From NCBI GenBank assembly GCA_963920575.1, contig OY986969.1, positions 14,462,615-14,526,614 of the forward strand: a DNA stretch of 64,000 nt. Reading direction: 5' to 3'. Positions 14,551 to 35,474 of this stretch are shown one piece after another. This DNA comes from Narthecium ossifragum. Its lineage: Eukaryota > Streptophyta > Magnoliopsida > Dioscoreales > Nartheciaceae. The notes beneath the pieces are model-generated. The model was given only the letters and a program-made list of their open reading frames with translations. It was not told the origin of the DNA and made no database searches. Position 1 is the stretch's first letter, and each line of letters begins with the position of its first letter. Position numbers and translations under genes: made by a program.

Positions 14551-15246
14551 GCTTCTCTTCTCCACTGTAAACCCCCCCGACAATCTGTAACCTGCTTAAG
14601 CATGGCTTTCGTTTCTTTTGTACCTGTAAGTTGATTAATAAAGCTTCCAGTTTGATTAATGGCGTCTTTTACTGCTTTCTTAGTGTAATTTCGATAATGT
14701 AGTCTTTTAATCATTTTCTTCCTTTCATTTCTGTTCTAGTTTAATGGATTTCTTTTCGTTTTCGCTTTCTGTCCGTTTCTGTTTTATAGTTTAATTAAGT
14801 TAAATTAGTTTACTGTTTATTGTTTCTTTTCTTTATGATCGTAGGAGTATTTTAAAATTAATTTAGGTTTTATCAGTCTTCTTTTACGCTTTCTGTTATT
14901 TAAGCTTTCTTTACTGTTTTCCATTAGAATAAGTTACTGCTTTCTTAGATTAAGTTAATTGATAGGTTTAATTGCATTTTCTGAATTTAGTAATTTAGGT
15001 TGATCTTTATGCTTTATTTAATTCCGTAATCTTAGACAATTTAAAGCTTTTCTTAGGTTAATTCAAGTTAATCTTGATAATTAAATTATTGAATTAGGTC
15101 TAATCTAGATTTCCATATTACTTGACATCTCTGGTTCGTTAATTCGAAAGAGCAGAACTCAACTACAATCATCTGATATTTAAGTGTGGAATAGGATCTT
15201 GACTTTGACTATTTGACCGGTCAACGGTTAGATTTCCTCTCTAACA

Positions 15247-15272
15247 TTTTTTGGCACGCCCGGTGGGACCTG
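15247..15272 (+). other. Primer-binding-site region of element B
   Basis: TTTTTTGGCACGCCCGGTGG follows the LTR end directly. TGGCACGCCCGGTGGGA could pair with a tRNA 3' end, but I did not identify the tRNA. A diverged copy follows the LTR of element A. Confidence 0.7.
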
Positions 15273-15284
15273 TGTCAAGTCTTT

Positions 15285-18200
15285 ATGGAAGTCGGTCAAG
15301 TTGGACCAGACGAAATGGTCATCACTAGGACTTGTTTGGACACCAATAGTGGTAGTGGAAACGCCGATCACGGCGATGGTCAACAAAGTCCAATTGTGGT
15401 CGAGGAAGAGCCTGTTCTTTTTCCACCTCTCGACCAATCACATATTCCTCCACCTGTTCCCCCACCACACAAAGAATATCGACATAGGGTGCTTTATCGC
15501 TCTGTAGAGCGAGGGAACTCATCGGCCAGAGTTGGCCTAGACCCAGGAAACATAACGTCAAATACAGCCCAAAATATGGTCGATGAAGCTTTACATGCTA
15601 AGAATCAGCAGATGGCTAGCCATATTGCCACTGCTCTAAGGCCTTTTATCGATACTATGCAGACTTTTATAAACGCAACTTTGTCCCAAGCAAACCCTGG
15701 ATCAAATGTTGCTAGGCCTGCCATGTCAGCAATCCCTATCGGCCAAACCACCACCCAAAATAATCGACCATTTCCGTCCAACACAGTCATGGGATCTGGT
15801 GGTAATAACGGTTTTGCTATTTTACAAAATCCAATGCATAGCCAAAATCGTATCGGCCAAAATAGCCAAGTTGGCCAAACTAGTACAACCCATTATCGGC
15901 CATCGATGAACAATGATAATAATCCAAAACCAAACTTAGTCGGTCAAACGTCTGGGTTGTTTTCATCGCCAACGCAAATACATCATAATAATGAGGTGTT
16001 AACTCCCGGAGGAATACCAAATAATGGTGTCCCTCCTCTTCAAGGGATGCAAGGTGGTGTTGTGCCTCCGGCACAGGGAGCACCAAATAATGGAGTTCCT
16101 TTAGGTCAGGGTATACCAGTAGGTGGAATGCCTTTGGTTATGGGCGAAAACATTTTTCAAAACATTCCTCAGAACATTCCTCCTAATAGCCAGAACCTTG
16201 TTTACCCAAACAATGGCCAAAACCTTGTGTACCCAAATAATGGCCAAAATATTGTGTTCCCAAACAATGGCCAAAATGTTGCTTTCCAAAACAATGGCCA
16301 AAATATCGGCCAAAATAATAACTTGGATGTTTAAGGCCAAGAGTTTCCACGGAATAACTATGGGCAACTAGGTGGCCAAGCTAATCGGCCAGCAAGGAAT
16401 AACTATTATAACCAAAGAATGGCTGATGGTCAACGCATGGGCGATATCCCTTATCAGAATAATTATCGGCCATATGAGGCACCTATGTATTATGCTCGAC
16501 CACCAAACGAGCAGTATGACCAAGTGTACAACAACCCTCTTTACAATCAGGCCGATGCTTTACGTGAACAAGTTGCGGAGATTTTACAAGAGCAAATAGG
16601 TTTAGGACGACCAGCTACTCGTCCAACTTATAGGAAACCTTATCCTGATTGGGTTGACCAAATGTACCCGTTTCCTAGGAACTATAGAGTTCCGGAGTTT
16701 ACCATGTTCTCTGGGGTAGATGAGATATCAACCATTGAGCACATAGGGAAATTCTCCATGCAATGCGGAGACGTGAATGATTTTGTCAAACTTAGACTAT
16801 TCCCTAACTCTTTATCCGGGGTAGCTTATTCCTGGTTCATTAAACTATCGCCCAATTCTATTCAAAATTGACAGCAAATAGAACATGCATTCCATTCTCA
16901 ATTTTATAAGTCAGAACCGGAAATAACAATGGCCGATTTGGCTCAACTTAGACAACGGCCAGATGAGAAGGCTGACTCATTTTTACAAAGATTTAAAAGA
17001 GCGAGAAGTAAGTGCTTTATTCCCTTGCCTGAAAGGGAATTTGTAAAAATCGCTCAAAGTGGATTAGCCTTTGAACTTAAAAAGAAGTTCCAAGATAGGG
17101 ATTTTATCGACCTATTTCAACTGCAGACTAGCGCTATACGTTATGAACAGTTGTTAAGAGAAGAAGATCAGATGAAATCATCTTCCAAGGGAACTTACTA
17201 TAGAGATACTAACTATGAAATAAACCAAGTTAGTAACGTCGATGAAGAAAACTACAATATGAACGATGTTTGTTTGGCCGAGCTTCTTAAGGGAAAATTT
17301 TATATATGTAAAGCACTTGCCAAACTTGAGCGAGAACTTAAGGGTAAAGAAGTACTGAGAGACGGTAAATGTCCAATGCGAAAGTTTTCTTTTGATATTT
17401 CAAAGGCTGATCAAATCTTTGATCAATTACTGAAAGATAAACAAGTCAAATTGAAATATGGACATGCTATGCCAAGCCTTGATGAGATCAAGGACAAAAG
17501 ATATTGCAAGTGGCATAATGCTTGGTCACATCACACTAATCAATGTTTGACTTTCCGTAATGTTTTGCAGGATGCGATTGATTCCGGAAGGATTGGTTTC
17601 CCAGCCAAGCACATGGGAGTTGATGCAAATCCGTTCCCCAAGGCTGCTCCAGTGGGAATGGTGTTGACGGATGTGGCAAATTTCAAATTGCCAAAGTTCA
17701 AGATCGTCATCGACGAGACTGAGGACGACAGTCGTCCAGATGTCTTCGCAAGACTTGGTCAAGACAAAGGGAAGGAACCTGCCATTCCACATGTCTGCCC
17801 AAGATGTCATTGGGATCTCAGTCGCCCGATGACACCGTTCTCAGGAACCAAGTTTCCTCATTCACAGTCTAGGCAGTGGAACAGAGTTAAGCCTCATGTG
17901 TACCCAAAAAACTTTATGCCTCAGCCTTACAAGCCAGAGCGATGGTACAACTACAACTGTTATACTCGTCGATCCATTCCTGTGGAGGAGATGACGAGGA
18001 CTCAGTACCGCCACCACCAGAAGAAGTATGGCTAGATGATGAAGGCCAAGCAAGCCCAGGAAACTAACCCAAGTCAGAATGAGGAGGTTGAAGAGATTGA
18101 AGAAGATGTTGTTGTCTCTAATGCAACAGAGTCATCAAAGAGCAAGTTTCATCGTCCAAACAAGGATGATGATGATGAGACTGGAGCAAAACAAGTGATT

Positions 18201-19739
18201 AGATTCGGAACACTCCCGTCAGTCATCGTGAATAACTATATCTTGTCAAGCCGCCTTAGACAACAATGTCCAACTGAAAGCGACTCAGACATATCCGATA
18301 TGGCCGATGATGGATCATCAGCCACACTGGTCGAGGAAGATGAAGACACATCGGCTACCTTGGTCGATGAAATGGAAAATTCACCCTCAGTGAACTTAGT
18401 GCTCGACCAGGACGATGCATACGTCGAGATCGAGGAAAAAATCGACGTCACTGAAGAGGCTTGGAGGAGGAATATATCTACAGAATAACTGTTGAGACAG
18501 TTGTATAAAGAAGGAAATTCAGCAGTTGGACCAGGTGGCCAGCCAAGTGGCCGATATGATTACCTGCGGGTATATGGGGACGTGAAGGTGAAGCGTCTCG
18601 TTAAGAAGACAGAGGTTGTCGCTCAGATTGTTCCGTCGACATCGACCACAATTGTTCCAACTGGCTGGGGTCATGAAGAACAAGAACCCATGGTCGAGGA
18701 TGTTGAATGGGTAGAAATAGAAGTACCCATCAAAGTTAATGAGGAGGCAGCGAAAAGAAACATCTCCCAAAAGAAGCTGTTGATGGATCTCTACAAGGCA
18801 GGCAATCCAGCTATTAGTACTCAGGGCCAACCAAGTGGAAAGTTTGATTACTTGGTTTGCTATGGCGACCCCATTGTGAAGAAGTGGGTTCCCAAGTCCG
18901 ATGTTGCTAAGTACAGTCCACCAGCCAATGAAGTACCAATCATCCCAACTGGTTGGGACATGGAAGAAACAGAGGCACAGCAGAAACAACACCAAGAAGT
19001 CGTCCAGGTTGCAGCTAAGGCAAAGGGGAAAGCAGTCAGCCATCAACCTCAGTCATCGGCCAGTTCCCATAAAAAAGATCCCAAAGATCAGAACAATGCC
19101 GTGTTTGAACGACCCCCAGTAGCAATGACACGCCACTTACGGCCTTTACATATCAAGGCCGAGATCAATGGTGTTCCAGTAAGTAGAGTCTTGATCGATA
19201 CCGGAGCTGCAGTAAACGTCATCCCCGCAAAGATGATGAAGAAGTTACACAAGACCGATAGTGATCTTATCCCCACGGATATCACACTAACAAGATTCAG
19301 TGGAGTTCCAGCCCCAGCAAAGGGAATTCTTCCTTTGGACATCAAGGTTGGAAGCGTCACAAGAACGACAGCGTTCTTTGTCATGAACTCATCGACCAGT
19401 TATAATGTACTGCTTGGTCGAGACTGGATTCATGCCAGTCAATGCGTTCCTTCGTCTCTTCACCACTGTTTGTTCTTATGGAACGACAAGGGGAACGTAG
19501 AATCAGTTATGGCCGATAACATGCCATACAGTATGGACACGCATGCCTTGGAAGCATCGTTCTATGATTGCAATTATGGCCCTTTACAATTCCTCCAGTT
19601 TGAAGACACACTCAAGGTAGTCTCTGAGAATGGAGTCATGCTAAGGGAGCGTGTAGCGGAGCTGTTCGATCCGGCAAGACCAACCTCAATGGTCTTTGCA
19701 CCTAAAGCTGGCCGATCACCGGCCACAAGTCAGAAATGA
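15285..19739 (+). pseudogene. Gag-protease of element B, interrupted by stops
   Basis: One frame runs from ATG 15285 to TGA 19737-19739, with stops at 16332, 16869, 18033 and 18486. In order there is a Pro/Gln/Asn-rich N-terminal part, an ~11-residue repeat (NNGQN type, 16195-16320), a capsid-like region (YPDWVDQMYPFPR, then RQRPDEKADSFLQRFKRARS), a zinc-finger-like CKWHNAWSHHTNQC near 17504-17545, and an ~85-residue domain present twice in tandem (18423-18668 and 18711-18960). An aspartic protease follows, with LIDTGAAVNVIP at 19191-19226 and VLLGRDWIH. The stops at 16869 and 18033 match Trp and Gln positions in relatives. The start follows the primer site by few bases, as expected for a genomic RNA. 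The product would form the particle and cut the polyprotein; this copy cannot make it intact. Confidence 0.9.
18423..18960 (+). repeat. Tandem domain duplication within gag-pro of B
   Basis: Two units of ~80-85 residues lie between gag and protease. Both go from VEIE through NIS, LLxxLYKxGN, GQPSG, DYL and YGD to PTGW. The units clearly differ, so the duplication is older than this insertion. I do not recognise the domain. Confidence 0.85.
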
Positions 19740-22700
19740 TGAGTTCAGACTCTGAAAGAAATCAGGCCGCTGTAACGGCCTTAAAAGCCAAGCTAATGGC
19801 TTATCAAGTGAAAGCTTTCGCTGCACAAGAAGAGAATGACCTAGATTGTCTAAAAGAGATACCCCAAGAAGAAGAGGAAGAAGTCCCCTATGGCAAACGT
19901 GGAAATATGCAAGCTCAAGACCCGTTGGAAGAAATCAATCTTGGTGATGGCACAGTGCATCGTCCAACCTTCATCAGTAAACTTATCGACCAAGAGGTAA
20001 GGAACAAACTCATTGCTATATTACGTTCATATAAAGATTGCTTTGCATGAGATTATAAAGAGATGCCTGGTTTAGATAGGAATATTGTAGAGCATGAGCT
20101 TCCTACTCGGCCAAATTTTAAACCATATAAGCAAGCGCGTAGACGCTTTGCTCCAAACATAATCCCAGAAGTAAAAAAAGAAATTGAACGATTGTTAAAC
20201 GCTAACTTTATTAGAACGGCCAGATATGTAGAATGGCTTTCTAATATAGTGCCAGTTAAGAAGAAAAATGGCAAACTTAGAGTTTGTATAGACTTTAGAA
20301 ATTTAAACTTGGCTACACCCAAGGATGAGTATCCTATGCCATCGGTCGATAATTTAGTTGATTCCACCGCTGGACACGAGATATACTCATTTATGGATGG
20401 GTATTCTGGATATAACCAAATTTATATCGCCGATAATGATGTTCATAAAACGGCATTTAGATGTCCAGGATCACTTGGAAGTTATGAATGGGTTGTTATG
20501 CCTTTTGGTCTGAAAAACACTGGTGCTACTTATCAGCGAGCGATGAATTTTATTTTTCATGATATGATTGGGCATTTTGTTGAAGTTTACGTTGATGACA
20601 TAGTAGTGAAGTCACCAATTATGACCGATCACTTTTCACAATTGATCAAAGCTTTTGAGCGAATGAGAGAATATAATTTAAAGTTAAATCCCTTGAAATG
20701 TGCCTTCGGAGTACAGGCAGGGAATTTTCTTGGTTTTCTCGTCCATCAGCGAGGAATTGAACTTGACCAAAACAAAGCAAAGTCTATAATTGAGGCCAGT
20801 CCTCCAAAGACTAAGAAAGAACTGCAAAAGTTCCTTGGTCAAGTAAATTTTTTGAGACGATTTATCGCTAACTGTGCAGGTAAAACTCAAGAGTTTTCAT
20901 CGCTCTTGCGATTAAAGAGTGAAGACGATTTCGTCTGGGAAGAATGATATCAACAAGCCTTTGAACGTTTGAAGCAATGTTTGTCAACGCCACCAGTTAT
21001 GGCGCCACCAAGGTTGGATCAACCCATGAAGCTTTACATCGCTGCAGCAGACCGATCAATAGGCGGTCTCTTGGCGCAAGAACGGAAAGATGGAGCTGAG
21101 AGAGCAGTATATTATCTAAGTAGACAGTTGTTACCTTATGAGCAAAAGTACTCGGCCATAGAAAAGTTGTGCTTGGCCTTGTATTTTATGTGTACCAAGC
21201 TTAGAGCTTATTTAAAACCTGTAACAGTCTATTTGATATCTAAGTTCAATGTATTGAAATTAATGTTTTCTCGGCCAATTTTGCACCAACGTATTGGTTA
21301 TTGGGTTTTAACATTGGCTGAATTTGACATTCAATTTGTGTCTCAAAAAGCTGTTAAGGGCCAGGCATTGGCTGATTTTTTAGCTGACTATCCTTGTGTA
21401 GATATCCCAAAGGAGTTAGAGCGAGAGATTAACAACGTATCACTCATCCCCTGGACGATGTACTTTGATGGTTCTAAAACTATCAATGGAGCTGGCCTTG
21501 GGATCACAATCCTATCGCCCATTGGACGCAAATATAAATTTGCATATACTTTATGACAATTATGTACTAACAATCAGGCTGAGTATGAAGCTCTAATCAT
21601 CGACCTAGAAATTTTGTAAGACTTAGGAGTGTCCAATGTACAGATCAAAGGTGATTCACTATTAGTGATAAATCATTTACTTGGACATTACAAATGCCAG
21701 AGCGATATCTTAATTCCATTTCATCAAATCGCCCAAACATTGTTAAATCGTTTTAACGATTTTGAACTTTTATTCGTTCCAAGATTACAGAACGATGAGG
21801 CGAATGCCCTCGCCCAAATAGCATCAGGCTATAAAGTGTTAAAACACTTGGGTGGCATGCACGATTTCCGTTCTGGTGTAATACAATCTGCACTAGAGCG
21901 ATATAATCAACCAAACGAGGTAAGTCAAATCGATAGCCAACCGGATTGGCGAACCCCAATCGTCGATTTCTTGAAAGACCCATCGCTTAAAGTTGATAGA
22001 AAAATCCATCTTAAAGCGATACATTATTTTTTACAAAACGACGTTTTATATAAACGTCGACCAGATAGCGTCTTATTGCGCTGTTTACACCCTGATGAGG
22101 CTAAATTGACAATGGCCGAGATACATAATGGTGTTTGTGGAGCACATCAGTCTGGCATCAAAATGCGCTGGCTAATAATGCGCAGTGGCTTTTATTGGCC
22201 ACGCATGGGGGAGGAGTGTGCTATATATGCCAAAGGATGTGAAGCATGCCAAAGACATGGACCATTACAACGAGCTCCAGCAAGTGAATTATCGATCATT
22301 GTTAAACCTTGGCCATTCAGATGTTGGGCGATAGACATTATAGGAAAAATATATCCTCCATCGTCCATGTTGCACAAGTTTGTAATTGTGGCAACATATT
22401 ACTTTACTAAATGGGTAGAAGCGATTCCATTAAAGAATATTTCTGATGACCAAGTGATAAATTTCATTTGGGAAAATATTATATGTAGATTTGGCATTCC
22501 ACAAACAATTGTGTCCGATCAAGGGACAATGTTTATAAGTTCCAAGGTAAAGAATTTTTTGGCTGAATATAAAATTAATATGGCCAATTCTACACCTTAC
22601 TATGCCTAATCTAATGGGCAAGCCGAAGCGTCCAACAAAACCATCAAGTCAATCATAAGAAAGATGATGGACGATAACCCAAGGCAATGGCATGAAGGTT

Positions 22701-23194
22701 TACTAAGAGCATTATGGGCACATAGAACTACACCTAAGTCTAGTACTAAGGTTACGCCTTATCAATTAGTTTATGGTCAAGAGGCGGTGCTACCGGCTGA
22801 GATAAATGTTCTGTTGCCCAGAGTTATAGAACAAGATCGCTCAAATAGTGAAGAATATGAAGACGCATTAATGTATAATCTTTTAGAGCTCGATGAGTAA
22901 CGAGCTATTGCCTTAGAAAATATAGAGGCACAAAAGTTAAAAGTGGCCGATATCTACAATAAAAAGGTAGTATCAAGAGAGTTTCAAGAAGGAGATCTAG
23001 TTTGGAAAACGATTCTACCTATAGATCGTAATGATCCCAAATATGGAAAATGGTTGCCCAACTGGGAAGGACCATACTTGGTCGATCAAGTATTTCCAAA
23101 TGGATCATATCAACTGAGGAATATTGACGGTGGGTTACATCGATCAATGATCAATGGTCGATACATTAAAAAGTACTACCCATCAATGGAATAA
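19736..23194 (+). pseudogene. Pol of element B (RT, two RNase H, integrase), interrupted by stops
   Basis: The pol frame differs from gag-pro. Its first ATG (19736) overlaps the gag-pro stop as ATGA. Domains in order are: reverse transcriptase (VCIDFRNLN, MDGYSGYNQI, MPFGLKNTGATYQR, YVDD at 20588-20599); a Ty3-type RNase H (LYIAAADRSIGGLLAQ, KYSAIEKLCLAL); an archaeal-type RNase H (MYFDGSKTINGAGLGI, TNNQAEYEAL, IKGDSLLVI) at about 21450-21840; and integrase (HNGVCGAH with CEAC zinc site, then catalytic WAIDIIGK, VSDQGT, GQAEASNK). No chromodomain is present. Stops at 20048 (a conserved Trp in the FAWDYKxMPG motif), 20945, 21554, 21617, 22607 (conserved Gln in YYAQSNGQ) and 22898 disable it. 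The final TAA is at 23192-23194, 126 bases from the end of the convergent antisense gene. Confidence 0.93.
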
Positions 23195-23320
23195 AAGGCA
23201 TAGAAGAAATACGTCCTTGAGATTTGGACGATAGCAATTAACAAAATATTGTTCATTACAAAAAATATCGACCAAAATTTTTACATTACGAGTCTTATCG
23301 CCCATATCTGACGAGAAAAA

Positions 23321-26300
23321 TTATCTCTTCAAAGAGAGATTTTGAAATAAAAGAGCAATTTTTTCACGAACTGCCCTAAAGCATTGCTTGTTCTTTACAA
23401 GTTCTCCCTTCAACTCGACTTGGCGATCTTTTGAAGAATTCGCCTCCAAAGCAACGTACTCTTGCATCATTTGATTGCCCTCCTCAGCCAGTTGAGTAGT
23501 CTCTCGAAGGAGATAGTTCTTCTGAGTAGTGCACTGGGCGATTTTTTCCTCTAACTCTTTCATTTGGTTCTGGTAACCGAGGATCTCTGATTCTTTTTCG
23601 CCAATATCATCAGTATTTTTCTGGAGCTGTTTAACACGATTACTGATGACATCTCTAATATGGGTACGCCACTCTTGACGTTCCCCTATAAGAACTATCT
23701 CATTCATCAAGTTGTTTCTCTCAGCAGTCAGACTCTCAATCTTGATCTTGATGTTATGGATATCGTCCATATCACTGGACGAAAACCCTAAGACTGTAGG
23801 ATCCACAGAGAGAAAGGGCGTTATGGCTTTGTCCAGTGCTTCACTATCTAATCTGGTGAAGTCCTCTTCAGGAAGCTTGTCCAAAACTACAAGACATTGA
23901 TATAACGCTCGCCTGAATTCTTCATGTTGACTCCCTTGTGCAACTTCAGGGTCAACAGCCGTTTTCTTGGCAGTCACTATAGCATGCCAAGAATCCGAGA
24001 AGGTCTGGACAATATTCATTAAATGGGCGAGATAGTCCTGAAAAGAACAAGCTTTCAGTAAGAATTAACACTAAATGGTCGAGAGAATCGAATTGAGCAA
24101 TAAAATACCTGTGAAGAGGTAGAACTGGATGGATGAGTAGTGGGAGTAACAAAAGATGAAGTTGAAGTCTTCATCACAGAGGGAGCAGCTACAGGACTTT
24201 TAGTAGTCGCCCTTATTTGAACATCAGTAGTTGATGCCAAAACTTGAGAAGTTGGCGATATAGTATCGGCCATTACTTGTTTAAGGATACCGCGGCGAAG
24301 TGTTGGAGATGCATTTATTGCCTCTGTTGATGAGACAACTGGAGAAACAGCGATGCCCGGCTTAACGGTTTTGGCTGAGAGATCTTCAACTTGAGTTGAA
24401 GCAGCTGGGATGTTAGGAGAAGCTGATACAGAAGATAAACTCGCATTACCAAGGTCTCGTAAAAAACTATACGGACCATGAACGAGTTTTCTACCAGTTA
24501 ATGACAAACCTGGTTTAGATGGAGTTGTATTCAAGACGTCAAAGATGTTGTTATCGTCTTCATCATCATCTTCTCGACCAGAGTCTTGACCACCAGACTT
24601 TTGCTTCCTCGCTTCCTAAAAGATTTAAAAGTTAGAGAATGGTCGATAGATCGATCATCAATAGAATAATGTTATCTATACTTTTAAATTCTTTTTGGCG
24701 AGTCATTTGAATCTACCACCAGAACGTACATGCACCGTTGCCTTTGAAGAAGATTTGGCCAAGGAAGTTGGAGGCACACTCTCATCAGCATGACCAGGAG
24801 AAGTTAGAGGATGTTCCTCGACCATTTTACCAGGAGAAGTTGAAGGATGTTCCTCGACCAATTTTGATGGAGATGTATCATCTATAACTTCACGATTTTT
24901 GGTTGTGGGTTGAGAAGGAGACAAAGAATACAAGGAGCTCGAAGTACTGGAGCCCACTTCTACAGTAGTCCTGAAGATATAAAAGTCTAAGTATCAAACG
25001 AAGAATACAAGTGTAACAGGAAAGGAAAACGTTATGATACTTACTTATCATGAGCAGATAGACTGCTTCGATGACTGCTGCTAGGAGAATCAACCTTTTC
25101 TTCTGCAATTAGCCGAGAAGATGATTGATCTTTTGTAGAGGAAGATGGTTGAGGTTGGACGATAGTTTTCCCTTTACTACGTCTCTTTGTAAGTGGTTCA
25201 TCATCCTCATCATCAGAATTCATCGATCGAGGAGATGATTTAATTTTTGGAGAAGAAGATGGTTGAGGTTGGATGATAGTTTTTCCTTTGCCACGCTTCT
25301 TTTTGGGCGGCGCATCGTCCTCATCGTCTGAACCTATCAATCATATAGTTTTTACATGAAGAAAGGATATCAAAAAATCAAGGAGAACGATGAAGATATA
25401 CCTTTTGTCTTTCGTTTACTTGGTCGATGACTAGCAGCCACTTGCTTTTGTCTTTTCTTCTCCCTTGGAGGAATGAACTTTTCAAAAACTAGGTCTTTGT
25501 CAGCAAAGAAAAGACGTTCGTCGACCATTTCTCTCCAGCTGTCGGTGATACTAGCTTCAATCTCGCTAGTAGGCTCAAAAGATCTAAGCCTAAACCTCTT
25601 AATGAGGAGCAATTCTCTCTTATCTACATAAACTACTCGCTCAATATCTGAGAAGATACATCGCCCTCTAGCAACGATATTAAAGCTGAAATATGGTGGC
25701 ACAGGCCAAGATTGTTTAAGGCCAAATTGGCGAGCAGCAAAATTGGGAGCATAAACTTCTACTCCACATTTATTGTTCGCCTTGCCCCAAGCCGTATCAA
25801 AATGAAGATCACGGCCGATAAGAAAACGAGCCCAGGCCAATATCTTCTCGTCAGACTCTAAGTCTGAAGAAAGATCAAGTAGAGGCTTAATGGACGATGG
25901 GTGAGATTTAGGGTTGAATGGATGATAGGAAGAAAAATTAGACAGAGTATAGAAATAATTGAACGCCTGTCGGAAAGATTTGGGAATAGGAGATGAAGAA
26001 AGATACAAATGGCCTTGAGTTCTGGCCGATGACGATGAAGGCGGCATATGAAGGTCTGGGAAGTAAGCTCTAAGCCATAATTGGACGAGCCACAAAGGAC
26101 CAAATCCCGTCAAACTACCCCCTTCTCTCAACTACTCAAGGACGAGATACATTCCTCGATAAATGGCCGACAAAATAAAAGGAGCAAGAGAGAAAACTTG
26201 TTTGCCCGAAAAAAGGTCCCGAGCGAGTGGGATATACCCCTTAACAGGTTTTTTGGCAGGAAGGCAAAGGACATATTTACAAAGCCAATAGTAAATGAAC

Positions 26301-26986
26301 GCTAATCGTTCAAGAGAGTTTGGAGGGCCATCGCTCTCAGACAACTTGGCATAGTAATTAATGAAAAGGCTGTAGTTCTTATCGGCCTCAAAAACAATTT
26401 CTTTCTTGGGCACGTCCATATTGGCCGATACAGAAGTACCAAGGGGAGTTAAACCAGTTAAGAGCGATATGTCCATTATGGTTATGGTGAGCGAACCAAA
26501 AGGGAAGACAAAATTGTTATACTCTGTCGACCAAAAGAGAAGCGACGAGATAAGCAAATTAGAATCTTGAAGAGGAACCCTGGTGCTCAAGTCCAAGAAA
26601 TCTAAGATACCCGCCTCAGAAAAAATTGACCTAGTTTCAGAATGGCCGATCATCCTATTATACCATTTGACAAACTTGTCATCAACTAATGGCCAGGAGA
26701 TGATAGGGTTTTTTGAAGAAAGAGAAGAGAGATTTAGGGTTCCAGAAAAGGGCAAATCGCCAGAAGTAGGAAAAGAATGCACAAGAACAGCCTCCTCGGC
26801 ACCAAGGGAAGGAATACTTTCAGGAATGAAACAAGGACCCAAAATAAATAACTGAGAGTTAGGATCACCTTCCCGGACCAGATAACCACTCCTTATGTCA
26901 TCCGACTTCATGTTTTCATTGAAATCTCCCACGGCGGACGTCACCTCTTTCTGCACATCGTTGTCAGCTTTAATCTCACGCACCAT
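23321..26986 (-). pseudogene. Antisense five-exon plant mobile domain/coiled-coil gene of element B
   Basis: Exons on the minus strand are 26986-25402, 25333-25045, 24970-24682, 24615-24109 and 24037-23321. The introns are 68, 74, 66 and 71 nt, each GT-AG, and the frame is kept across all four, giving 1129 codons. Exon 1 holds a plant mobile domain (ILDFLDLSTRVPL, LTITIMDISLLTGL, FIYYWLCKYVLCLPAKKP, FGPLWLVQLWLRAYFP, NKCGVEVY) ending in a basic KKRQKQ/KRKTKG tail. Exon 2 has two SDDEDDxPxxKKR-type repeats, acidic plus basic and NLS-like. Exons 3-4 are Ser/Thr/Pro-rich with VEEHPxTSPG repeats. Exon 5 is a long coiled coil. Two in-frame stops, TAG 26132-26134 and TGA 24703-24705, look like C-to-T decay. 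PMD proteins related to MAIN act in the nucleus in silencing and development; what this one does for the element is unknown. Element A has the same gene. Confidence 0.88.
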
Positions 26987-27126
26987 GATGACGAACGGGT
27001 GTAGACGCCGGAGTTAAGAGAAAAAGAACAAAGAACCGCCGCGGAGGTAGGTAAAGAGCAGTAAAACCCTAGGAGACTTGAAGAAGAAGACAGGCGAAGA
27101 AAGTTCTCTCTTGGCTGAAGGAAGGG

Positions 27127-27137
27127 ATTTAAATAAA
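27127..27137 (-). promoter_or_regulatory. Possible TATA box for antisense gene of B
   Basis: TTTATTTAAAT on the minus strand lies ~140 bases upstream of the antisense ATG (26986), comparable to the motif in element A. The following ~200 bases (27140-27330) have no other recognisable signal. Confidence 0.4.
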
Positions 27138-27328
27138 GGGTTTTTTGTCGTTACTTGCCAAAAGGCTTAAATGCCGGATCCCAGAAGATTTGGATAGAGA
27201 AAAGAAACGGCGCAGCGGTTCTTTTCCCTAAACATCCGCCATGATTAAATTTGAAAACCTAGGCAAAACTGTCAAATCCCGTATGATGCGATCACCTCGT
27301 CATAAAAGTGTCTCCTCGATTACCGCAT

Positions 27329-27339
27329 GGGGGGCAAAA
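27329..27339 (+). other. Polypurine tract of element B
   Basis: GGGGGGCAAAA lies directly before the 3' LTR start (TGTTAGCC at 27340), where plus-strand priming of reverse transcription occurs. Confidence 0.75.
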
Positions 27340-28567
27340 TGTTAGCCAAAATAATGGTTAACTCATTAATGACGGACACGTAAGCAATAAGCAATTACTA
27401 AATGGACGATAACTATATAATCTTATCGACCAAATGAACGATAGAATCTATCGACCAAATGGACGATAAAATATCGACCAAATGAAACGATGGAATCTAT
27501 CGATCAAATGGACGATAGAATTTTAACCAAATGGACGATATCGTCCATATGGCACCATCATTTAAACGACTATGGACGATAATCGCCCAAAAGTCACAAT
27601 TGGACATGTTACTCAATTTTATCGTCCAAAAGCAATTAACACGTGTGCCAAATATGGTTAAAAAACACATGCAGGTATGACGTTGACAAGAAACGATAAG
27701 TAAGCCAGCGTAATCATGACGCATGCAATGAACGAGAATCGACCACGTGTATTCTCCAAACCAGACACGGACGTGGGAGAAGCTGTTACGGAGCAGTTCG
27801 CACACGATCTCCTCCTTCCACGCCATCAACCCTCAAGGCGGGAGCAGTTATTCAGTTCCTTAGTATAAATAGCTTCTCTTCTCCACTGTAAACCCCCCCG
27901 ACAATCTGTAACCTGCTTAAGCATGGCTTTCGTTTCTTTTGTAACTGTAAGTTGATTAATAAAGCTTTCAGTTTGATTAATGGCGTCTTTTACTGCTTTC
28001 TTAGTGTAATTTCGATAATGTAGTCTTTTAATCGTTTTCTTCCTTTCATTTCTGTTCTAGTTTAATGGATTTCTTTCCGTTTCCGCTTTCTGTCCGTTTC
28101 TGTTTTATAGTTTAATTAAGTTAAATTAGTTTACTGTTTATTGTTTCTTTTCTTTATGATCGTAGGAGTATTTTAAGATTAATTTAGGTTTTATCAGTCT
28201 TCTTTTACGCTTTCTGTTATTTAAGCTTTCTTTACTGTTTTCCATTAGAATAAGTTACTGCTTTCTTAGATTAAGTTAATTGATAGGTTTAATTGCATTT
28301 TCTGAATTTAGTAATTTAGGTTGATCTTTATGCTTTATTTAATTCCATAATCTTAGACAATTTAAAGCTTTTTATAGGTTAATTCAAGTTAATCTTGATA
28401 ATTAAATTATTGAATTAGGTCTAATCTAGATTTCCATATTACTTGACATCTCTGGTTCGTTAATTCGAAAGAGCAGAACTCAACTATAATCATCTGATAT
28501 TTAAGTGTGGAATAGGATCTTGACATTGACTATTTGACCGGTCAACGGTTAGATTTCTTCTCTAACA
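27340..28567 (+). repeat. 3' LTR of element B
   Basis: This is nearly the same as 14001-15246 but 18 bp shorter in the tandem array. It has TATA at 27864-27871 and AATAAA at 27958-27963. It ends TCTAACA and is followed by the target duplication GCAGT. Confidence 0.95.
27958..27963 (+). terminator. Polyadenylation signal in 3' LTR of B
   Basis: AATAAA lies ~90 bases downstream of the LTR TATA box. In the 3' LTR it would end the element transcript. The identical motif at 14637-14642 is in the 5' LTR. Confidence 0.6.
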
Positions 28568-28858
28568 GCAGTAGAATGATAATACATGAAACTACAGGGT
28601 ATTAAAATGTATTTTGGCCTATAAAGTTTCCTAGCATGATTCTATTGGGCTCTTAAGAATGAAGGATCTATGATGCAGCTGAATGAGGAGTTCTTGGTTT
28701 GGACCAAGTCGTTCATCATAACATTATGGCTTTGTTGTGGAGTTCAGCACTATGCTAAGAGTCCTTTGAACTTCACAGGAGTATGTGATTCTAGCTATGA
28801 AGCATGAGGTATATACCCTTGGTGCATGGCTTGCGGCAGTGAGGATAGTAGCTGCCGG

Positions 28859-29205
28859 TGATAGGAATCACATCGATTCCTAGAAAGTAGAAGCTAATTT
28901 GTTTGCTATTTCAAATTATTGTTAGTAGTTGTTGAATAAGTTTTACTTGCAGCTTGCAAGCTTAAAACTAGGAACTTTTGTTTGTTGAATTAGTTTCCAT
29001 AGATCTGCTAGTTAGTTAGCATTTCAATTTCAAACATTTGTAAAAACGTGGATAACTCTTTTTAAGAGACTGTACTCAGGAGGGGAAGGTGGTGAATGAA
29101 ATTTCTGAGTTATCTGCAATGGAGAGATTCCTTGTAATATGGAGAGATTCCATTGAGTCCACTTAACAGGTGAGACTCTTGTTAAGTGATCTCTCTTTTA
29201 CATCA
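28859..29205 (+). repeat. 5' LTR of Reina-type element
   Basis: It matches 34038-34378 except for a 6-bp difference near the GACTGTACTCAGGAGGGG stretch and a few substitutions. Confidence 0.95.
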
Positions 29206-29208
29206 TTT

Positions 29209-29221
29209 TGGCATCAGAGCC
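29209..29221 (+). other. Primer-binding site of Reina-type element
   Basis: TGGCATCAGAGCC lies three bases inside the 5' LTR. Plant elements primed by initiator tRNA-Met have TGGTATCAGAGC here; one base differs. Confidence 0.8.
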
Positions 29222-29247
29222 TTTCCTTTCCTCATCCCAACCAGTTC

Positions 29248-32200
29248 ATGCCCACCACTCGTAGTGGCCATTCTTATACTATGAGTACCAATCATGCCAA
29301 TCCCACCAACCCCAACCAAGAACAACACACTAATCCTCCCCACAACCCCACTGTACCACACAACCCCACCACAGACCCCAACACCATCCTCATTTTACAG
29401 CAACTTCAACTTATTAATCAACGCCTGGATGAAGTGTACCAGAAAGTTTTTTCAGATGACCATGAGAGCAACATAGGAGCCCTTGGCGACCTTAATTCAA
29501 TTGCTGATAGAGAGCTCAGGGAAGGAGAAGGCGAGGTGCATGCTGGTGGCCAAGTTTTTCTTGTCGACCAAGGAGGCGTTGCTCACAATGGCGGTAGAAT
29601 CAATTTCCCCAACCATCCAAGGCGTGGCGGTGTCCGCGGCGGCCGTGTCCCCTACCATCAGCGACAACCGTTTGCTGACCAAGTTCATCATCAACAATGT
29701 GACCGTCAACAAACGCTGGATGATCTAACCAAGACGTTGTGGATAGACATTCCCGACTTCTGTGGCAAATTGGACTCTCATATTTTTCAGGATTGGTTAA
29801 CATCCTTGGAAGATTATTTTGAGTGGTTTGGAGTCTCGGAGGGCCGCAAGGTTCGCTTTGTGAAGATGAAATTGAAGGGACCGGCGAGAGTGTGGTGGAC
29901 AAGTGTCGAAGAACAGCTTAGAAGAACTGGGCAACCAGCTGTGACTGATTGGCTAGAGATGAAGGCAAGATTGCAGGAAAAATTTTTACCTTTAGACTAT
30001 GAGCAGATGATGTTCGAGGAAATGCTTAAGCTACAACAAGGGAGGTTATCTGTTGATGAGTACACAGATAAATTTTATGAATTGACAGTGAGAAGCCAAG
30101 TGGTGGAAACTGAACCACAAACCATTGCAAGATACAAGGCTGGGCTAAATGATGAGATCCAACATGAATTAACAACAGTGCGACTTGTAAGCATTGAGGA
30201 AGCTTATCAACTATCGCTGAGGATTGAAGCAAGAATCAAACACTCAGCGTCAAGGCGAACCAATTTTCCTATCGAGACAAGGATGCGAGTTCTGCCAAGT
30301 AATCCGCCTCGTGGTGACCTTGCAAGTAAGCCAATGGGTGGGCGACCGACGGTGACCAACACTTTGGGTAACCAAGTACGAAGGCCTCGTCAAAACTCAG
30401 CTGGCAATGCTGGAATTCAGTGCTATAAATGCGGCGGCATGGGACATTTTGCTGTGGTGTGTCCTACAAAAGACCAGAAACTTGCAATAGTCTGCGAGGG
30501 AGAATATTTGCAGGAAACGAGTGGAGATGACATTTTGGAAGAACAGGAGGACGAGGTGGAGGAGCTTGCAGCCACAACACTCCCGAGTTGTGTTCTTCAG
30601 GGAGTGCTTGCTGGGATGACAGAAAAGATAGATGACAAAGAAGAATGGTTGAGAACTAACATATTTCATACCAGATTTGAGTTCGCAGGGAAAGCCTTGA
30701 ATGTGATTATTGATAGTGGGAGTGGTATGAACGTGATTGCAGAAGCTATAGTGGACAAACTGAAGCTATCAAAGGAAAAGCATCCACGGCCTTACAAAAT
30801 CAGCTGGGTTAATGATCACAGCATTCCAGTAAAGTACAGATGTTTGGTGTCATTCTCATTGGGTAGGACTTATAAAGACCAAGTTTGGTGTGATATCATT
30901 CCTATGAATGTTTGTCATCTCTTACTTGGTAGGCCTTGGCTATATGATCACAAAGTTTTATATGATGGTTATGCTAACACTTATTCGTTCTCGTTCAATG
31001 GGAAGAAAATTGTGTTACAACCATTAAGAATTGCAGACTTTGAAGAGGACAAGGCCACAAGTACAGGATCCATCGTAGCTTTGAATAGATTTCTTAAAGA
31101 CAGTCAGGATTCTCAAGTGATTTTCTTGCTGATGGGGCGTGAGGTGAAACAAGTTATGACCAAACCAGTACTACCAGCAGTCCAGCACATCCTCGATGAA
31201 TTTAAGGATATAATGCCAGAAGAATTGCCAAACCAATTGCCTCCAATGAGAGAAATTCAACATGCCATCGATCTTGTTCCTGGATCGTCTTTGCCTAACC
31301 TTCCTCACTACAGAATGAGCCCTAAAGAGAGTGAAGAGCTTCGTTGGCAGGTACAAGATTTGTTGGAAAAGGGGTTCATCAGGGAAAGCCTCAGTCCTTG
31401 TGCAGTGCCGACCTTATTGACACCAAAGAAAGATGGGTCATGGAGAATGTGTATTGACAGTCGAGCAATTAATAAAATCACTGTTAAATACAGATTTCCC
31501 ATTCCCAGGTTGGAAGATATGCTGGATCAGTTGAGTGGTTCCTCTATTTTCTCAAAGATTGACTTAAGGAGTGGATATCACCAAATTCGAATACGGCCAG
31601 GAGATGAATGGAAGACGGCATTTAAAACAAAGGATGGCTTGTATGAATGGCTTGTCATGCCATTTGGTTTGACGAATGCACCAAGCACATTTATGCGTGT
31701 TATGACTCAAACATTGAGGCAGTTCATTGGGAAATTTCTTGTGGTATACTTTGACGACATTCTTGTTTTCAGCAGATCCCTATCCGAGCATTTGGAGCAT
31801 TTGGGTGCAGTATTCCAGAAGCTACGTGAAGGGCAACTTTTTGCTAATCAGAAGAAATGCTCATTTGCACAAAATCGAGTTATTTTCCTTGGCTTCATTG
31901 TGTCGGACAGGGGCGTCGAAGCTGATCCGGAGAAAGTTCGGGCGATTGTGGAATGGCCAATCCCTCGAAGCCTGCAGGAAACGAGAAGCTTCCATGGTCT
32001 TGCCACGTTTTATCGCAGGTTTATCAGGGGATTTAGCTCCATAATGGCACCCATAACCGATTGCATGAAGAGTGATCGCTATCGCTGGAGTCCGGAAGCT
32101 GATTTGGCTTTTAAAGAAATCAAGCAAAAGATGATTGAGGCTCCAGTTTTGAAGTTACCTAACTTTGATAAGATCTTTGAGGTCGCCTGTGATGCATCTC

Positions 32201-34062
32201 AGTTGGGAATTGGAGTCCTAAGTCAGGAAGGCCACCCAATTGCTTTTTTTAGTGAGAAACTAAATGAAGCTAAACAACGATACTCTACATATGATCTGGA
32301 ATTCTACGCTTTGGTGCAAGCATTGAAGCATTGGCGGCCCTACCTTATCCATCGTGAGTTTATCTTATATACTGACCATGACTCATTGAAACATTTGCAT
32401 TCCCAAAAGAAGCTTAGTGCAAAACATGCTAGATGGATTGATTTATTACAACAATATACTTTTGTAATAAAACATAAATCTGGAATAGAAAATAAGGTTG
32501 CAGATGCTTTGAGCCGTAGAAAACATGCATTGCTAACCTTTGCAGCTTCAACAACCTGTTTTGATGAAATAAAGAATGAGTATGAGAGGGATGCTGATTT
32601 CGGACAGATTTGGAGAGATTTGAGTAATGGCAGCAGGTTGTCCTCTGACTATGCTTTGCAAGAGGGTTTCTTATTTCAGGGAACCAAACTTTGCTTGCCT
32701 AATACGTCCATCAGGGAATTTGTTATATGGGAGTTGCATGCAGGAGGGCTAGCTGGACATTTTGGGCAAGATAAGACCTTCACTTTGGTCTCAGATCGCT
32801 TCTATTGGCCACATATGAGACGGGATGTACACAAAATTATTGCTCGTTGCCGAGTTTGTCAGATCAATAAGGGAGGGAAGCAGAACACAGGCCTTTATAT
32901 ACCACTACCAGTACCCTCGCGGCAATGGATTGATGTGAGTATGGATTTTGTATTAGGTCTCCCCAAGACTGTTCGAGGTCATGACTCTGTGATGGTTGTA
33001 GTTGATCGATTTTCGAAAATGGCGCATTTTGTGCCGTGCAGCAGAACTTATGATGCTTCACAAGTTGCAGGTATTTTCTTTAAGGAGCTTGTTCGGCTCC
33101 ATGGGTTGCCAAGCTCTATCGTGTCAGACCGTGATGTCAAGTTTGTGAGCCACTTTTGGAGGACACTATGGGCAAAGATGGGTACGAAGTTGAAGTTCTC
33201 TAGTGCTTTTCATCCACAAACGGATGGACAGACAGAAGTTACTAATCGGAGCCTTGGCAATCTGTTAAGGTGTCTTATTCGTGATCATGCTACACGTTGG
33301 GACCTAGTGCTACCACAAGCTGAATTTGCATTCAACAATTCAGTCAACAGATCCATAGGAAGGTGTCCATTCGAAGTGGTGTGGGGATTCAAACCACTTA
33401 CACCAATTGACATTACTCCTCTATCAACTCCACTACGAGAAAGTGAGAGTGGCAAGGACTTTGCACAGCATGTTCAAGGAATCCATGAGGAAGTAAAGCG
33501 CCGGATTGCAGTAAGCAATGATGGGTATTTGTCAAAGGCTAATGCGCATAGGAGATTCAAGGAATTTAAAGAAGGTGACATGGTGCTAGTAAGGCTCAGA
33601 CCAGAAAGGTTTCCTCAAGGCTCATATCATAAATTACATGCTCGTCGCGCTGGTCCTTTCAAAATTCTGAAATGCATTAATCCTAATGCATATGTATTGG
33701 AGTTACCTGCTGACTTTTCTATTAGCCCTATTTTTAATGTGGAGGATTTATTTTCTTTTCCTGGCTGCCATGAAGAGGACACAGATGAACAGCATGTGAT
33801 AGTTCGTCTCCCAGATTATGTGAAACCACGGGATGAGATAGACTCAATTATGGATCATCAATTTGTGACTACTAGGAGAGGAGGTTATGAAAAGTTCTTA
33901 GTCAAGTGGAAGAACCGGCCATTATCAGATTGTGTCTGGCTTCAGGGTGATGAAGTACGAAGACTAAACCCAGATTTATTTGAGCACTACATTAGTGCTA
34001 ACTTGTCAGAGCCAAGTTTTAATAAGGGGGAGAGAATTGATAGGAATCACATCGATTCCTAG
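29248..34062 (+). CDS. Gag-Pol polyprotein of Reina-type chromovirus
   Basis: One frame of 1604 residues runs from ATG 29248 (MPTTRSG), chosen because it is the first ATG after the primer site; the open frame itself starts inside the LTR at 29170. Approximate order in residues: capsid-type gag ~150-330; CCHC zinc knuckle CYKCGGMGHFAVVC at 392-405; aspartic protease with DSGSGMNV at 489; RT with YFDD at 834-837 and LRSGYHQIRI; RNase H with CDASQLGIG and TDHDSLKHL; integrase with HHCC site (HAGGLAGHF, CRVCQI) and catalytic motifs MDFVLGLP, VSDRDVKF, GQTEVTNR; and a chromodomain ~1523-1583 (YEKFLVKWKNRP, CVWL). All catalytic motifs look complete. The stop codon lies 24 bases inside the 3' LTR, so the last residues are LTR-encoded. 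The chromodomain probably guides integration into heterochromatin. Confidence 0.97.
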   Translation: MPTTRSGHSYTMSTNHANPTNPNQEQHTNPPHNPTVPHNPTTDPNTILILQQLQLINQRLDEVYQKVFSDDHESNIGALGDLNSIADRELREGEGEVHAGGQVFLVDQGGVAHNGGRINFPNHPRRGGVRGGRVPYHQRQPFADQVHHQQCDRQQTLDDLTKTLWIDIPDFCGKLDSHIFQDWLTSLEDYFEWFGVSEGRKVRFVKMKLKGPARVWWTSVEEQLRRTGQPAVTDWLEMKARLQEKFLPLDYEQMMFEEMLKLQQGRLSVDEYTDKFYELTVRSQVVETEPQTIARYKAGLNDEIQHELTTVRLVSIEEAYQLSLRIEARIKHSASRRTNFPIETRMRVLPSNPPRGDLASKPMGGRPTVTNTLGNQVRRPRQNSAGNAGIQCYKCGGMGHFAVVCPTKDQKLAIVCEGEYLQETSGDDILEEQEDEVEELAATTLPSCVLQGVLAGMTEKIDDKEEWLRTNIFHTRFEFAGKALNVIIDSGSGMNVIAEAIVDKLKLSKEKHPRPYKISWVNDHSIPVKYRCLVSFSLGRTYKDQVWCDIIPMNVCHLLLGRPWLYDHKVLYDGYANTYSFSFNGKKIVLQPLRIADFEEDKATSTGSIVALNRFLKDSQDSQVIFLLMGREVKQVMTKPVLPAVQHILDEFKDIMPEELPNQLPPMREIQHAIDLVPGSSLPNLPHYRMSPKESEELRWQVQDLLEKGFIRESLSPCAVPTLLTPKKDGSWRMCIDSRAINKITVKYRFPIPRLEDMLDQLSGSSIFSKIDLRSGYHQIRIRPGDEWKTAFKTKDGLYEWLVMPFGLTNAPSTFMRVMTQTLRQFIGKFLVVYFDDILVFSRSLSEHLEHLGAVFQKLREGQLFANQKKCSFAQNRVIFLGFIVSDRGVEADPEKVRAIVEWPIPRSLQETRSFHGLATFYRRFIRGFSSIMAPITDCMKSDRYRWSPEADLAFKEIKQKMIEAPVLKLPNFDKIFEVACDASQLGIGVLSQEGHPIAFFSEKLNEAKQRYSTYDLEFYALVQALKHWRPYLIHREFILYTDHDSLKHLHSQKKLSAKHARWIDLLQQYTFVIKHKSGIENKVADALSRRKHALLTFAASTTCFDEIKNEYERDADFGQIWRDLSNGSRLSSDYALQEGFLFQGTKLCLPNTSIREFVIWELHAGGLAGHFGQDKTFTLVSDRFYWPHMRRDVHKIIARCRVCQINKGGKQNTGLYIPLPVPSRQWIDVSMDFVLGLPKTVRGHDSVMVVVDRFSKMAHFVPCSRTYDASQVAGIFFKELVRLHGLPSSIVSDRDVKFVSHFWRTLWAKMGTKLKFSSAFHPQTDGQTEVTNRSLGNLLRCLIRDHATRWDLVLPQAEFAFNNSVNRSIGRCPFEVVWGFKPLTPIDITPLSTPLRESESGKDFAQHVQGIHEEVKRRIAVSNDGYLSKANAHRRFKEFKEGDMVLVRLRPERFPQGSYHKLHARRAGPFKILKCINPNAYVLELPADFSISPIFNVEDLFSFPGCHEEDTDEQHVIVRLPDYVKPRDEIDSIMDHQFVTTRRGGYEKFLVKWKNRPLSDCVWLQGDEVRRLNPDLFEHYISANLSEPSFNKGERIDRNHIDS

Positions 34063-34378
34063 AAAGTAGAAGCTAATTTGTTTGCTATTTCAAATTATTG
34101 TTAGTAGTTGTTGAATAATTTTTACTTGCAGCTTGCAAGCTTAAAACTATGAACTTTTGTTTGTTGAATTAGTTTCCATAGATCTGCTAGTTAGTTAGCA
34201 TTTCAATTTCAAACATTTGTAAAAACGTGGATAACTCTTTTTAAGAGGCTGTGAGGGGAAGGTGGTGAATGAAATTTCTGAGTTATCTGCAATGGAGAGA
34301 TTCCTTGTAATATGGAGAGATTCCATTGAGTGCACTTAACAGGTGAGACTCTTGTTAAGTGATCTCTCTTTTACATCA
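34038..34378 (+). repeat. 3' LTR of Reina-type element
   Basis: It is preceded by the purine tract AAGGGGGAGAGAA and followed by the target duplication GCCGG. The Gag-Pol stop (34060-34062) lies within it. Confidence 0.95.
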
Positions 34379-35474
34379 GCCGGTGTGCTTGGCGGCGACA
34401 TTGATGTTGGCCAGGGTTGAGGTTGGGGAGGTGCGTTTGATAAAGAAGAATAGAGCCAGAGAAAGATAGTCGGCCGGGGTTGAGGTTGGGGAGGTGCGTT
34501 TGATGAAGAACAGAGCCAGAGAAACAGAGGTCGCGTTGGCGGTGCTCTGGCACTTGGTCGGCGATGGTGGAAAGAAGGGTGCGGCAACGCGACGATGGGG
34601 GCTTGTCGAGTGGTGGGCCGCCATTGAGAGCGGTGGTTGGAGGTCGTGATTTGGCTAGGACGGGGGAGAAAGATCGGTTGAAATAACAGAGGAGTCGTGG
34701 CCCACGTCGTGGGATTGCAGGGTGATAACCGTGCTCAATATTTTCAAATATCACTATGAACCTGGCTGCCACTGGTCCACATTCGTCTAAGATATATTTG
34801 TCATTGTTGGATTATAGAAATCTAATCGCATTATATTGGTGAATTAGAATTAGATCAACCTTACAAGGGAAGAATGCACAATCGCAACCTATAAGGATGA
34901 TATATTTGTTTGTGAATTTCTACTTTATTGTAGTCCCTTTTTCATGTTTTATGAATAGTTAAGGCAAACGGCTACAAACACAAACACCTTGTACCTACGC
35001 ATGGGCCTCAAAGCCACTTTAGTCAATCACGTTTGTCAGATCTACATCAAACAAAATATTCTTATTTCATTGAATTGTGGTCTATGAGCTTGGTGCTGGC
35101 GTCGGCCAAGGAGCTTGATCTCCATGAATGCATGGGGGAACAATTAAATAGGATGTATCTCTAAAGTCTCGAGCATAAATTACTTTTGTCGAACAATTAA
35201 TGGAGAATTAAAAAATGGCAAGTTATTATCACATCTTCTTGCGCAGGTCCTTCTTACTGTGTAAACGGAGATATAAATATGGTCTGTGAGATGACTCGCT
35301 TTGAAACCTTAAATGAGAAAAACTCCTCTGTTTTCTATCATAAAATAAAACTACAGATAAAAAAGAAGTAATTCTTACTGAGATCAGGCACAACAAAACA
35401 CCGGATTTTTTGCGATATTGGACCTTGAAGTTCACATTTGACAGAATGAGACCCCTCTCAAGTTTTTTTTGCAA

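Follow-up and report, generated by a model that had tools for sequence, protein, structure and literature searches.

In our study, a gene encoding a plant mobile domain (PMD) protein was found on the strand opposite to gag-pol in a long terminal repeat (LTR) retrotransposon of Narthecium ossifragum. The retrotransposon, here called element B, lies in the window, that is, the whole stretch of 64,000 nucleotides of contig OY986969.1 that was analysed, and occupies nucleotides 14001–28567 (14,567 nt) as a complete element flanked by the 5-bp duplication GCAGT. The gene is interrupted by four introns, and we have hardly any doubt that it is real, antisense, built for splicing and selected. Element B was also found to be covered with the short sequence TGGNCGA. 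The constrained four-intron antisense PMD gene and the TGGNCGA carpet are, as far as we found, what is new here, and the carpet provides a concrete handle on what the antisense protein may do.

The minus strand from 26986 to 23321 was translated after splicing at the junctions proposed in an initial annotation of this DNA. The start (26986), the stop (23323–23321), the five exons and the four GT-AG introns of 66–74 nt given there were exact in their coordinates; the introns occupy 25401–25334, 25044–24971, 24681–24616, and 24108–24038 and measure 68, 74, 66, and 71 nt, respectively. The spliced length is 3387 nt and the frame is kept across all four joins, as had been claimed, but two in-frame stops had been overlooked and the window copy is broken. 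These are a TAG at 26134–26132, within the PMD, and a TGA at 24705–24703, in exon 3; the frame of the window copy would terminate after 284 amino acids. Among 30 aligned copies, the window copy counted, a stop was present at the TAG position in three and at the TGA position in one. The introns contained 68–73% A+T with 42–47% T, and the exons 57–58% A+T. Two upstream GT donors for intron 3 also keep the frame, at 24735 (1 of 30 copies) and 24729 (30 of 30 copies), and may be alternative splice starts compatible with the aligned copies.

A DNA search of the same genome with the antisense gene gave 41 matches from the best 40 of 598 candidates, a lower bound, and showed at least 39 further copies besides that of the window. 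The whole gene region was spanned by 38 matches (window counted); of the remaining three, one is a partial copy and the other two are fragments of a further copy. Thirty loci were aligned, the window among them, and 24 distinct copies were left after L010–L015, at least 99.9% identical to L016, had been dropped. The seven copies L010–L016 are 99.9–100% identical to each other and are distributed over six small contigs and a region close to one end of contig C12; they probably stem from one insertion, through array amplification or through duplication in the assembly. The donor GT was present in 30, 29, 30, and 30 of the 30 copies for introns 1–4 and the acceptor AG in 30, 30, 29, and 30. Other copies that keep splice sites and frame, on which the initial annotation had staked its gene model, were thus found: all eight splice dinucleotides are kept in 22 of the 24 distinct copies, and the frame is open from ATG to stop in 5. 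The intron lengths vary among the 30 copies (66–74 nt) and the exon lengths are nearly fixed; exon 1 measured 1585 nt in 29 copies, and exon 3 had two lengths, 289 nt (8 copies) and 253 nt (22 copies). Gap events shared by at least two copies and not divisible by three numbered 7 in 279 intron nucleotides vs. 2 in 3387 exon nucleotides (Fisher p = 4e-7), and such events in single copies numbered 1 in introns and 6 in exons. Unspliced read-through of the introns met a stop or a frameshift in 24/24 copies. A chance joining of exons was rejected on the conserved splice sites and exon lengths of the 30-copy alignment. No intron loss was found among the 30 aligned copies, in agreement with the earlier suggestion that the introns persist because the gene is antisense to the RNA that is reverse-transcribed. 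The wording "only because" was an overstatement, since the gag-pol of Ogre retains an intron in the sense direction (PMC6317226).

Selection was studied through the substitution pattern of the 24 distinct copies. Shared variants, where a second base occurred in at least two copies, numbered 116, 80, and 307 at codon positions 1, 2, and 3 (p = 3e-39), equal to 10.3, 7.1, and 27.2% of the sites, and singleton variants numbered 169, 166, and 193 (p = 0.29). The codon-position signal was pronounced in exon 1 (p = 9e-28) and exon 5 (p = 2e-17), weak in exon 2 (0.03) and exon 4 (0.05), and absent in exon 3 (0.51). The ratio of nonsynonymous to synonymous substitution (dN/dS) was obtained with the Nei-Gojobori method (NG86) over the 192 of 276 pairs that were more than 6% apart. 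It was 0.21 for the whole gene, 0.22 for residues 1–125, 0.098 for the PMD, 0.20 for residues 431–528, 0.49 for exons 2–4, and 0.106 for exon 5. In the same pairs, the last 445 codons of pol gave 0.118. The PMD and the C-terminal part are constrained about as strongly as the pol end; therefore, the protein matters to the element. The wrong frames of the same strand gave 1.10 and 1.65, and the frames of the opposite strand 1.03, 0.258, and 1.45, of which we take the 0.258 to be a mirror of the third positions. With these opposite-strand values, a shadow of sense-strand coding was rejected, and the strand is settled by the open frame, the splice signals and the PMD. Pairs less than 2% apart (26 pairs) gave 0.51, as expected if new copies drift. 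The antisense gene was under purifying selection while the family multiplied and decayed neutrally after insertion. A non-functional passenger was rejected on the codon-position bias of the shared variants and the low dN/dS.

The same data bear on the idea, present in PMC7264820, that the antisense RNA and not the protein matters, forming double-stranded RNA with the genomic RNA and so limiting the element. Pol and the antisense gene are convergent and lie about 160 nt apart, with the pol end estimated from one open copy, an arrangement that suits this idea. However, the dN/dS of 0.10 in the PMD mostly refutes it: the constraint at the codon level together with the conservation of the splice sites means that the protein is needed, and we regard an RNA-only role as very improbable.

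A search of the genome with P0001, a PMD protein of Abeliophyllum, revealed further PMD families, and two of them, L046 and L047, were taken with 5.4 kb each. Identity to the window was 66% in exon 1 and 44% in exon 5 for L046, and 63 and 47%, respectively, for L047. An integrase lies downstream on the opposite strand in L046; no integrase match was found in L047 within its 5.4 kb. Introns 2, 3, and 4 were seen by eye, from the translations, at matching places in both families with phases 2, 0, and 0, though intron 3 of L047 is without a clear acceptor and the frame there is broken. Intron 1 (25401–25334) was not found in L046 or L047 and was therefore gained or lost, possibly a case of intron gain or loss inside a retrotransposon gene. 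In a tree of 22 PMDs, from which P0005 and P0009 had been left out beforehand, the window grouped with L046 and L047 (98/97) and next with eight proteins of Abeliophyllum and Fraxinus (98/96). It was separated from eight other PMDs of its own genome (100/99), three of which stand beside transposases of Mutator-like elements (MULEs). One further PMD of the genome, in an open frame of 837 amino acids, fell on the window's side of the 100/99 branch with a long branch. In two proteins, P0001 and P0002, the PMD is followed by a charged linker and a helical-looking end, as in the antisense protein (compared by eye). Exon 5 had no BLASTP similarity to these ends (E 0.68 and 0.46), and therefore only the layout is common there.

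Since the PMD is also a host domain, the gene might be a recent acquisition from the host that is carried along as a functionless passenger. This is refuted by the codon-position bias, the dN/dS and the PMD tree. The gene is present in at least 40 copies and in two families that are 63–66% identical in exon 1 and have introns 2–4 at matching places, and its PMD groups away from the eight others of the genome. We give recent capture next to no chance.

The three protein features named in the initial annotation were all recovered. A search with the PF10536 profile placed the PMD at residues 126–430 of the read-through product with 96.9 bits (E 1.8e-27), above the curated cut-off of 34.9, and the part upstream of the stop of the window copy reached 68.2 bits alone. 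The acidic and basic repeats resembling a nuclear localisation signal (NLS) are located in exon 2, as a duplication of 105 nt; the NLS-like motif K[KR]x[KR] is present in 23/24 copies. The C-terminal coiled coil agrees with a single-sequence structure prediction of exon 5, in which the model is all-helical with one helix of 114 residues (87–200) at a predicted local distance difference test (pLDDT) score of 74.7. NCBIfam matches of exon 5 were of the generic coiled-coil kind, far under their cut-offs. No relative was found in the PDB by sequence search (best E 0.19), and AlphaFold on PMD relatives reached a pLDDT of only 39. The product is a probable nuclear protein.

The leader between the start of the gene and the 3′ LTR was found to be conserved at the level of codon positions 1 and 2. 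Its shared-variant sites amounted to 9.6% vs. 17.3% in the LTR, 11.8–27.0% in the introns and 12.0% at the pol end. We infer that the leader is the antisense gene's own promoter; in Grande, gene23 has been reported with its own promoter and a nuclear product (PMC7264820).

TGGNCGA was the most over-represented 6-of-7 pattern in element B relative to the rest of the window, with 99 sites in its 14,567 nt vs. 12 in the other 49.4 kb. The internal part of the element contained 74 sites, whereas 300 dinucleotide shuffles gave a mean of 4.04 (sd 1.97, maximum 10). Of the sites, 45 are on the forward and 54 on the reverse strand, and all codon phases are represented. They are located in the LTR, the gag region, the protease, pol and the antisense gene, with none in the leader, which was free of TGGNCGA in 24/24 copies. 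Directly after the motif, the first base was T at 70 of the 99 sites, the second A at 56 and the third A at 49. The LTR showed the highest density, with 13 sites in 1246 nt. There the sites are partly within a tandem array of about 24-nt units, which has its match in the 3′ LTR at 27411–27540, and the three inverted pairs of sites two bases apart are all in the LTRs. Each copy of the family contained 37–52 sites per 6.6 kb. In the related families, L046 contained 26 and L047 25 sites, each in 5.4 kb; the pattern ranked first in L047 and first behind low-complexity patterns in L046.

The coding sequence alone does not explain the carpet. When synonymous codons were shuffled 2000 times with the protein kept, none of the rounds reached the observed number in the antisense gene (18 sites vs. 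3.4), the protease frame (9 vs. 1.15) or the integrase frame (6 vs. 1.2). At third positions of the antisense gene, shared variants occurred in 2/40 motif columns vs. 301/1073 matched controls (p = 0.0005) and vs. 89/337 CG-bearing controls (p = 0.0015). Over all columns, they occurred in 20/246 motif and 933/6314 control columns (p = 0.003, with matched ascertainment). Exon 1 contained nine sites in the window, nine in L046 and eight in L047, of which five and three, respectively, were at the window's positions at 68% nucleotide identity. Across the families the sites of exon 1 are thus partly kept and partly turned over, with the density about constant. Three explanations of the carpet were rejected: protein coding alone, by the presence of sites in all codon phases and the far lower counts in synonymous shuffles; an RNA signal, by the sites on both strands; and a general property of PMD loci, by densities of 0–0.74 per kb in 15 other PMD loci (0.12–0.62 per kb in seven and 0–0.74 per kb in eight further loci).

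The carpet and the antisense gene may be parts of one system. In this proposal, the leader would act as promoter, and the spliced antisense messenger RNA would yield a nuclear PMD protein. The protein would pair through its C-terminal helices and bind the TGGNCGA sites of its own family, and this binding would keep the family transcribable against host silencing, like VANC for the VANDAL DNA transposons. The predicted helical end could serve pairing, and paired sites are present in the carpet. We put forward the whole chain, in which the antisense PMD protein is a nuclear self-regulator and the carpet its likely target, as a tentative proposal by analogy that could well be wrong. Its most specific form, in which an LTR retrotransposon recognises itself through the PMD protein of an intron-bearing antisense gene, which reads TGGNCGA on both strands along the entire element and also within coding DNA, so that the family frees itself alone from silencing, is doubtful. 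If true, the self-recognition carpet would be a second, DNA-level code written over the protein code of gag-pol. Should the protein bind TGGNCGA, sequence-specific counter-silencing would extend from a group of DNA transposons to LTR retrotransposons, and this would help to explain the presence of PMDs in both transposons and the host silencing machinery.

Known systems resemble parts of this proposal. VANC is a transposable-element (TE) protein of VANDAL MULEs that binds a short motif gathered in the tandem repeats of its family, where it removes methylation (PMC5735166, PMC10398659); as in element B, the protein is encoded by the element, and the family is enriched in a short motif that lies partly in tandem repeats. 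The host proteins MAIN and MAIL1 are likewise PMD proteins that act on TE silencing, but they belong to PMD-C and their loss releases silencing (PMC5418596, PMC7156037). In the human T-cell leukaemia virus HTLV-1, the antisense gene HBZ likewise sits at the 3′ end of an LTR element and is spliced, and its nuclear product has a C-terminal dimerising helix; HBZ differs in that the protein is unrelated and transcription starts from the LTR (PMC3185765).

Several observations weigh against the proposal that the antisense protein reads the carpet. The link between protein and motif is that the two occur together in three families of a single genome, each of which has the PMD protein. Three PMD-bearing MULE loci are without the carpet, and therefore the PMD alone does not bring TGGNCGA. 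The excess over codon shuffles was weak in the reverse transcriptase (RT) frame (2 sites vs. 0.29; 42/2000 as high) and the gag-region frame (3 vs. 1.08; 153/2000 as high), and at third positions of the pol fragment the motif columns were no more conserved than the controls (4/16 vs. 116/429, p = 1). Within the leader, shared variants were rarest in the 199 nt beside the polypurine tract (6.5%) and reached 13.7% in the TATA-like stretch and 12.3% in the remainder to the ATG, with 12.2% in the adjoining LTR stretch; a role in sense replication could account for part of the conservation. VANC belongs to a DNA transposon, contains DUF1985 and not a PMD, and its binding has been shown, whereas binding by the antisense protein is a proposal; the sites of VANC21 are noncoding and those of element B are mostly in coding DNA. 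DUF1985 was not found in the joined product, where Pfam at E ≤ 0.1 gave the PMD only; the antisense protein is not a VANC.

The antisense gene could instead be a selected accessory gene, with the carpet read by a host factor (a transcription factor or chromatin protein) that the element exploits, or by the element's own integrase or capsid. The occurrence of sites in the LTR and in coding DNA on both strands would suit such a reader, as would the peak of density in the LTR and the co-occurrence on which the link to the PMD protein is based. Yet the neighbouring chromovirus contains only 2 TGGNCGA in 5520 nt, and all three families with the motif have an extra PMD protein, the obvious element-specific reader. 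We consider such a reader somewhat unlikely. A role of the protein in retrotransposition itself, through nuclear import of the pre-integration complex or the choice of target, has been proposed for antisense extra open reading frames (ORFs) in PMC7264820. It would agree with a PMD and exon 5 constrained equally to the pol end and with the NLS-like block; the carpet would then be unconnected with this role or would assist packaging. For packaging, sites on one strand only would be expected, yet they are divided almost evenly between the strands, and we think this role with an unrelated or packaging carpet quite unlikely.

Seven loci round other high-scoring PMDs were inspected, and a Mutator-like transposase was found in three (L039, L040, and L045), the other four having been scanned partly or not. 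In a further PMD locus, the PMD frame L041:3580–4455 (minus strand) also matched DUF1985, the VANC domain, weakly over the same stretch (23.6 bits, under the cut-off), and PMD and DUF1985 may be distantly related.

The presence of PMDs in plant transposons had been mentioned in the initial annotation and is on record, in 57% of Ogre elements (PMC6317226) and in the Gypsy-only clades PMD-A1/A2 (PMC5418596). The Tat elements with a PMD resemble element B in having the domain in an extra gene and an additional RNase H between RNase H and integrase; in element B the gene is antisense, downstream of pol and divided into five exons. Grande gene23, RIRE2 and Retand ORF4 are likewise antisense between pol and the 3′ LTR (PMC7264820, PMC11963269), but ORF4 of Retand contains the domain Transposase_28 and not a PMD (PMC11963269). 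In the available text of that Retand survey, no word starting with "intron" occurs. According to PMC7264820, it is unknown what the antisense extra genes of plant retrotransposons do, and PMC6317226 questions any function of such extra ORFs. Counter-silencing by PMDs has already been published as a suggestion (PMC8616336). PMDs in Tat elements, antisense extra ORFs (one with its own promoter and nuclear product) and the counter-silencing idea are thus not new. In the accessible parts of the open-access literature, we found no report of a multi-intron antisense retrotransposon gene or a selection test on one, nor of a motif carpet in an LTR retrotransposon.

The features of element B are given in Table 1. 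Judged by its gene order and additional RNase H, element B is a Tat-type Ty3/gypsy retrotransposon on the Ogre/Retand side. Pfam domains run from protease through RT and RNase H to a second RNase H and the integrase, as described for Ogre and Retand (PMC6317226); the second RNase H (PF13456, 25.8 bits, cut-off 21.6) precedes the integrase (PF17921 and PF00665) within 21629–22609. With its LTRs, the duplication and this RNase H before the integrase, the earlier placement of the gene opposite to gag-pol in a Tat retrotransposon was borne out. The antisense frame lies between pol and the 3′ LTR in most copies, which were retrieved through the antisense gene itself. The gag-pol of the window copy is split into several frames. 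The two scanned frames preceding the protease (15213–16334 and 16929–18035) gave no match to a Pfam gag domain, and the gag region is named by position. The LTR pair showed a Kimura two-parameter (K2P) divergence of 0.0148 over 1228 aligned sites, with 18 gap columns excluded. At substitution rates of 1.3e-8 or 7e-9 changes per site per year, the insertion would be about 0.57 or 1.06 million years old, respectively.

Table 1. Features of element B in the window, with position, strand and basis.
Feature	Position	Strand	Basis
Target-site duplication GCAGT, left	13996–14000		Sequence read
TGGNCGA carpet, 99 sites, both strands	14001–28567		Pattern counts
5′ LTR, TGTTAG...CTAACA	14001–15246	+	97.1% identity to 3′ LTR, gaps counted
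LTR tandem array, unit about 24 nt, 4.8 copies, with TGGNCGA partly as inverted pairs	14102–14219	+	Tandem Repeats Finder
Putative primer-binding site TGGCACGCCCGGTGGGAC	15252–15269	+	Position directly 3′ of 5′ LTR; tRNA unmatched
gag-pol, aspartic protease frame	18492–19739	+	PF13975/PF13650
pol: RT, RNase H, second RNase H, integrase; interrupted in window copy	19736–23156	+	Pfam
Antisense exon 5: C-terminal helical (coiled-coil-like) part, stop TAA	23321–24037	-	dN/dS 0.106, structure model
Antisense exon 4	24109–24615	-	Translation, copy alignment
Antisense exon 3, 289 nt, in-frame TGA in window copy	24682–24970	-	Translation, copy alignment
Antisense exon 2: duplicated acidic/basic NLS-like block	25045–25333	-	Translation, repeat comparison
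Antisense exon 1: ATG, PMD, in-frame TAG in window copy	25402–26986	-	Translation, Pfam
Antisense leader, 353 nt, gene start to 3′ LTR	26987–27339	-	TATA-like CTTTATTTAAAT near 27138
Polypurine tract GGGGGGCAAAA	27329–27339	+	Sequence read
3′ LTR	27340–28567	+	LTR comparison, sequence read
Target-site duplication GCAGT, right	28568–28572		Sequence read

A chromovirus was found to the right of element B, at 28859–34378, with a single uninterrupted gag-pol frame of 1630 amino acids and LTRs of about 345 nt that are 97–99% identical. It is young, and its chromodomain scores slightly under the cut-off. Inverted repeats with 90–99% complementarity surround it (28620–28860 and 34379–35474 vs. 36013–36642 and 40569–41425), which suggests an inverted duplication split by insertion. 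Elsewhere in the window, a cluster of GATCGAT was found at 58001–62000, with 27/57 of the window's strand-wise counts.

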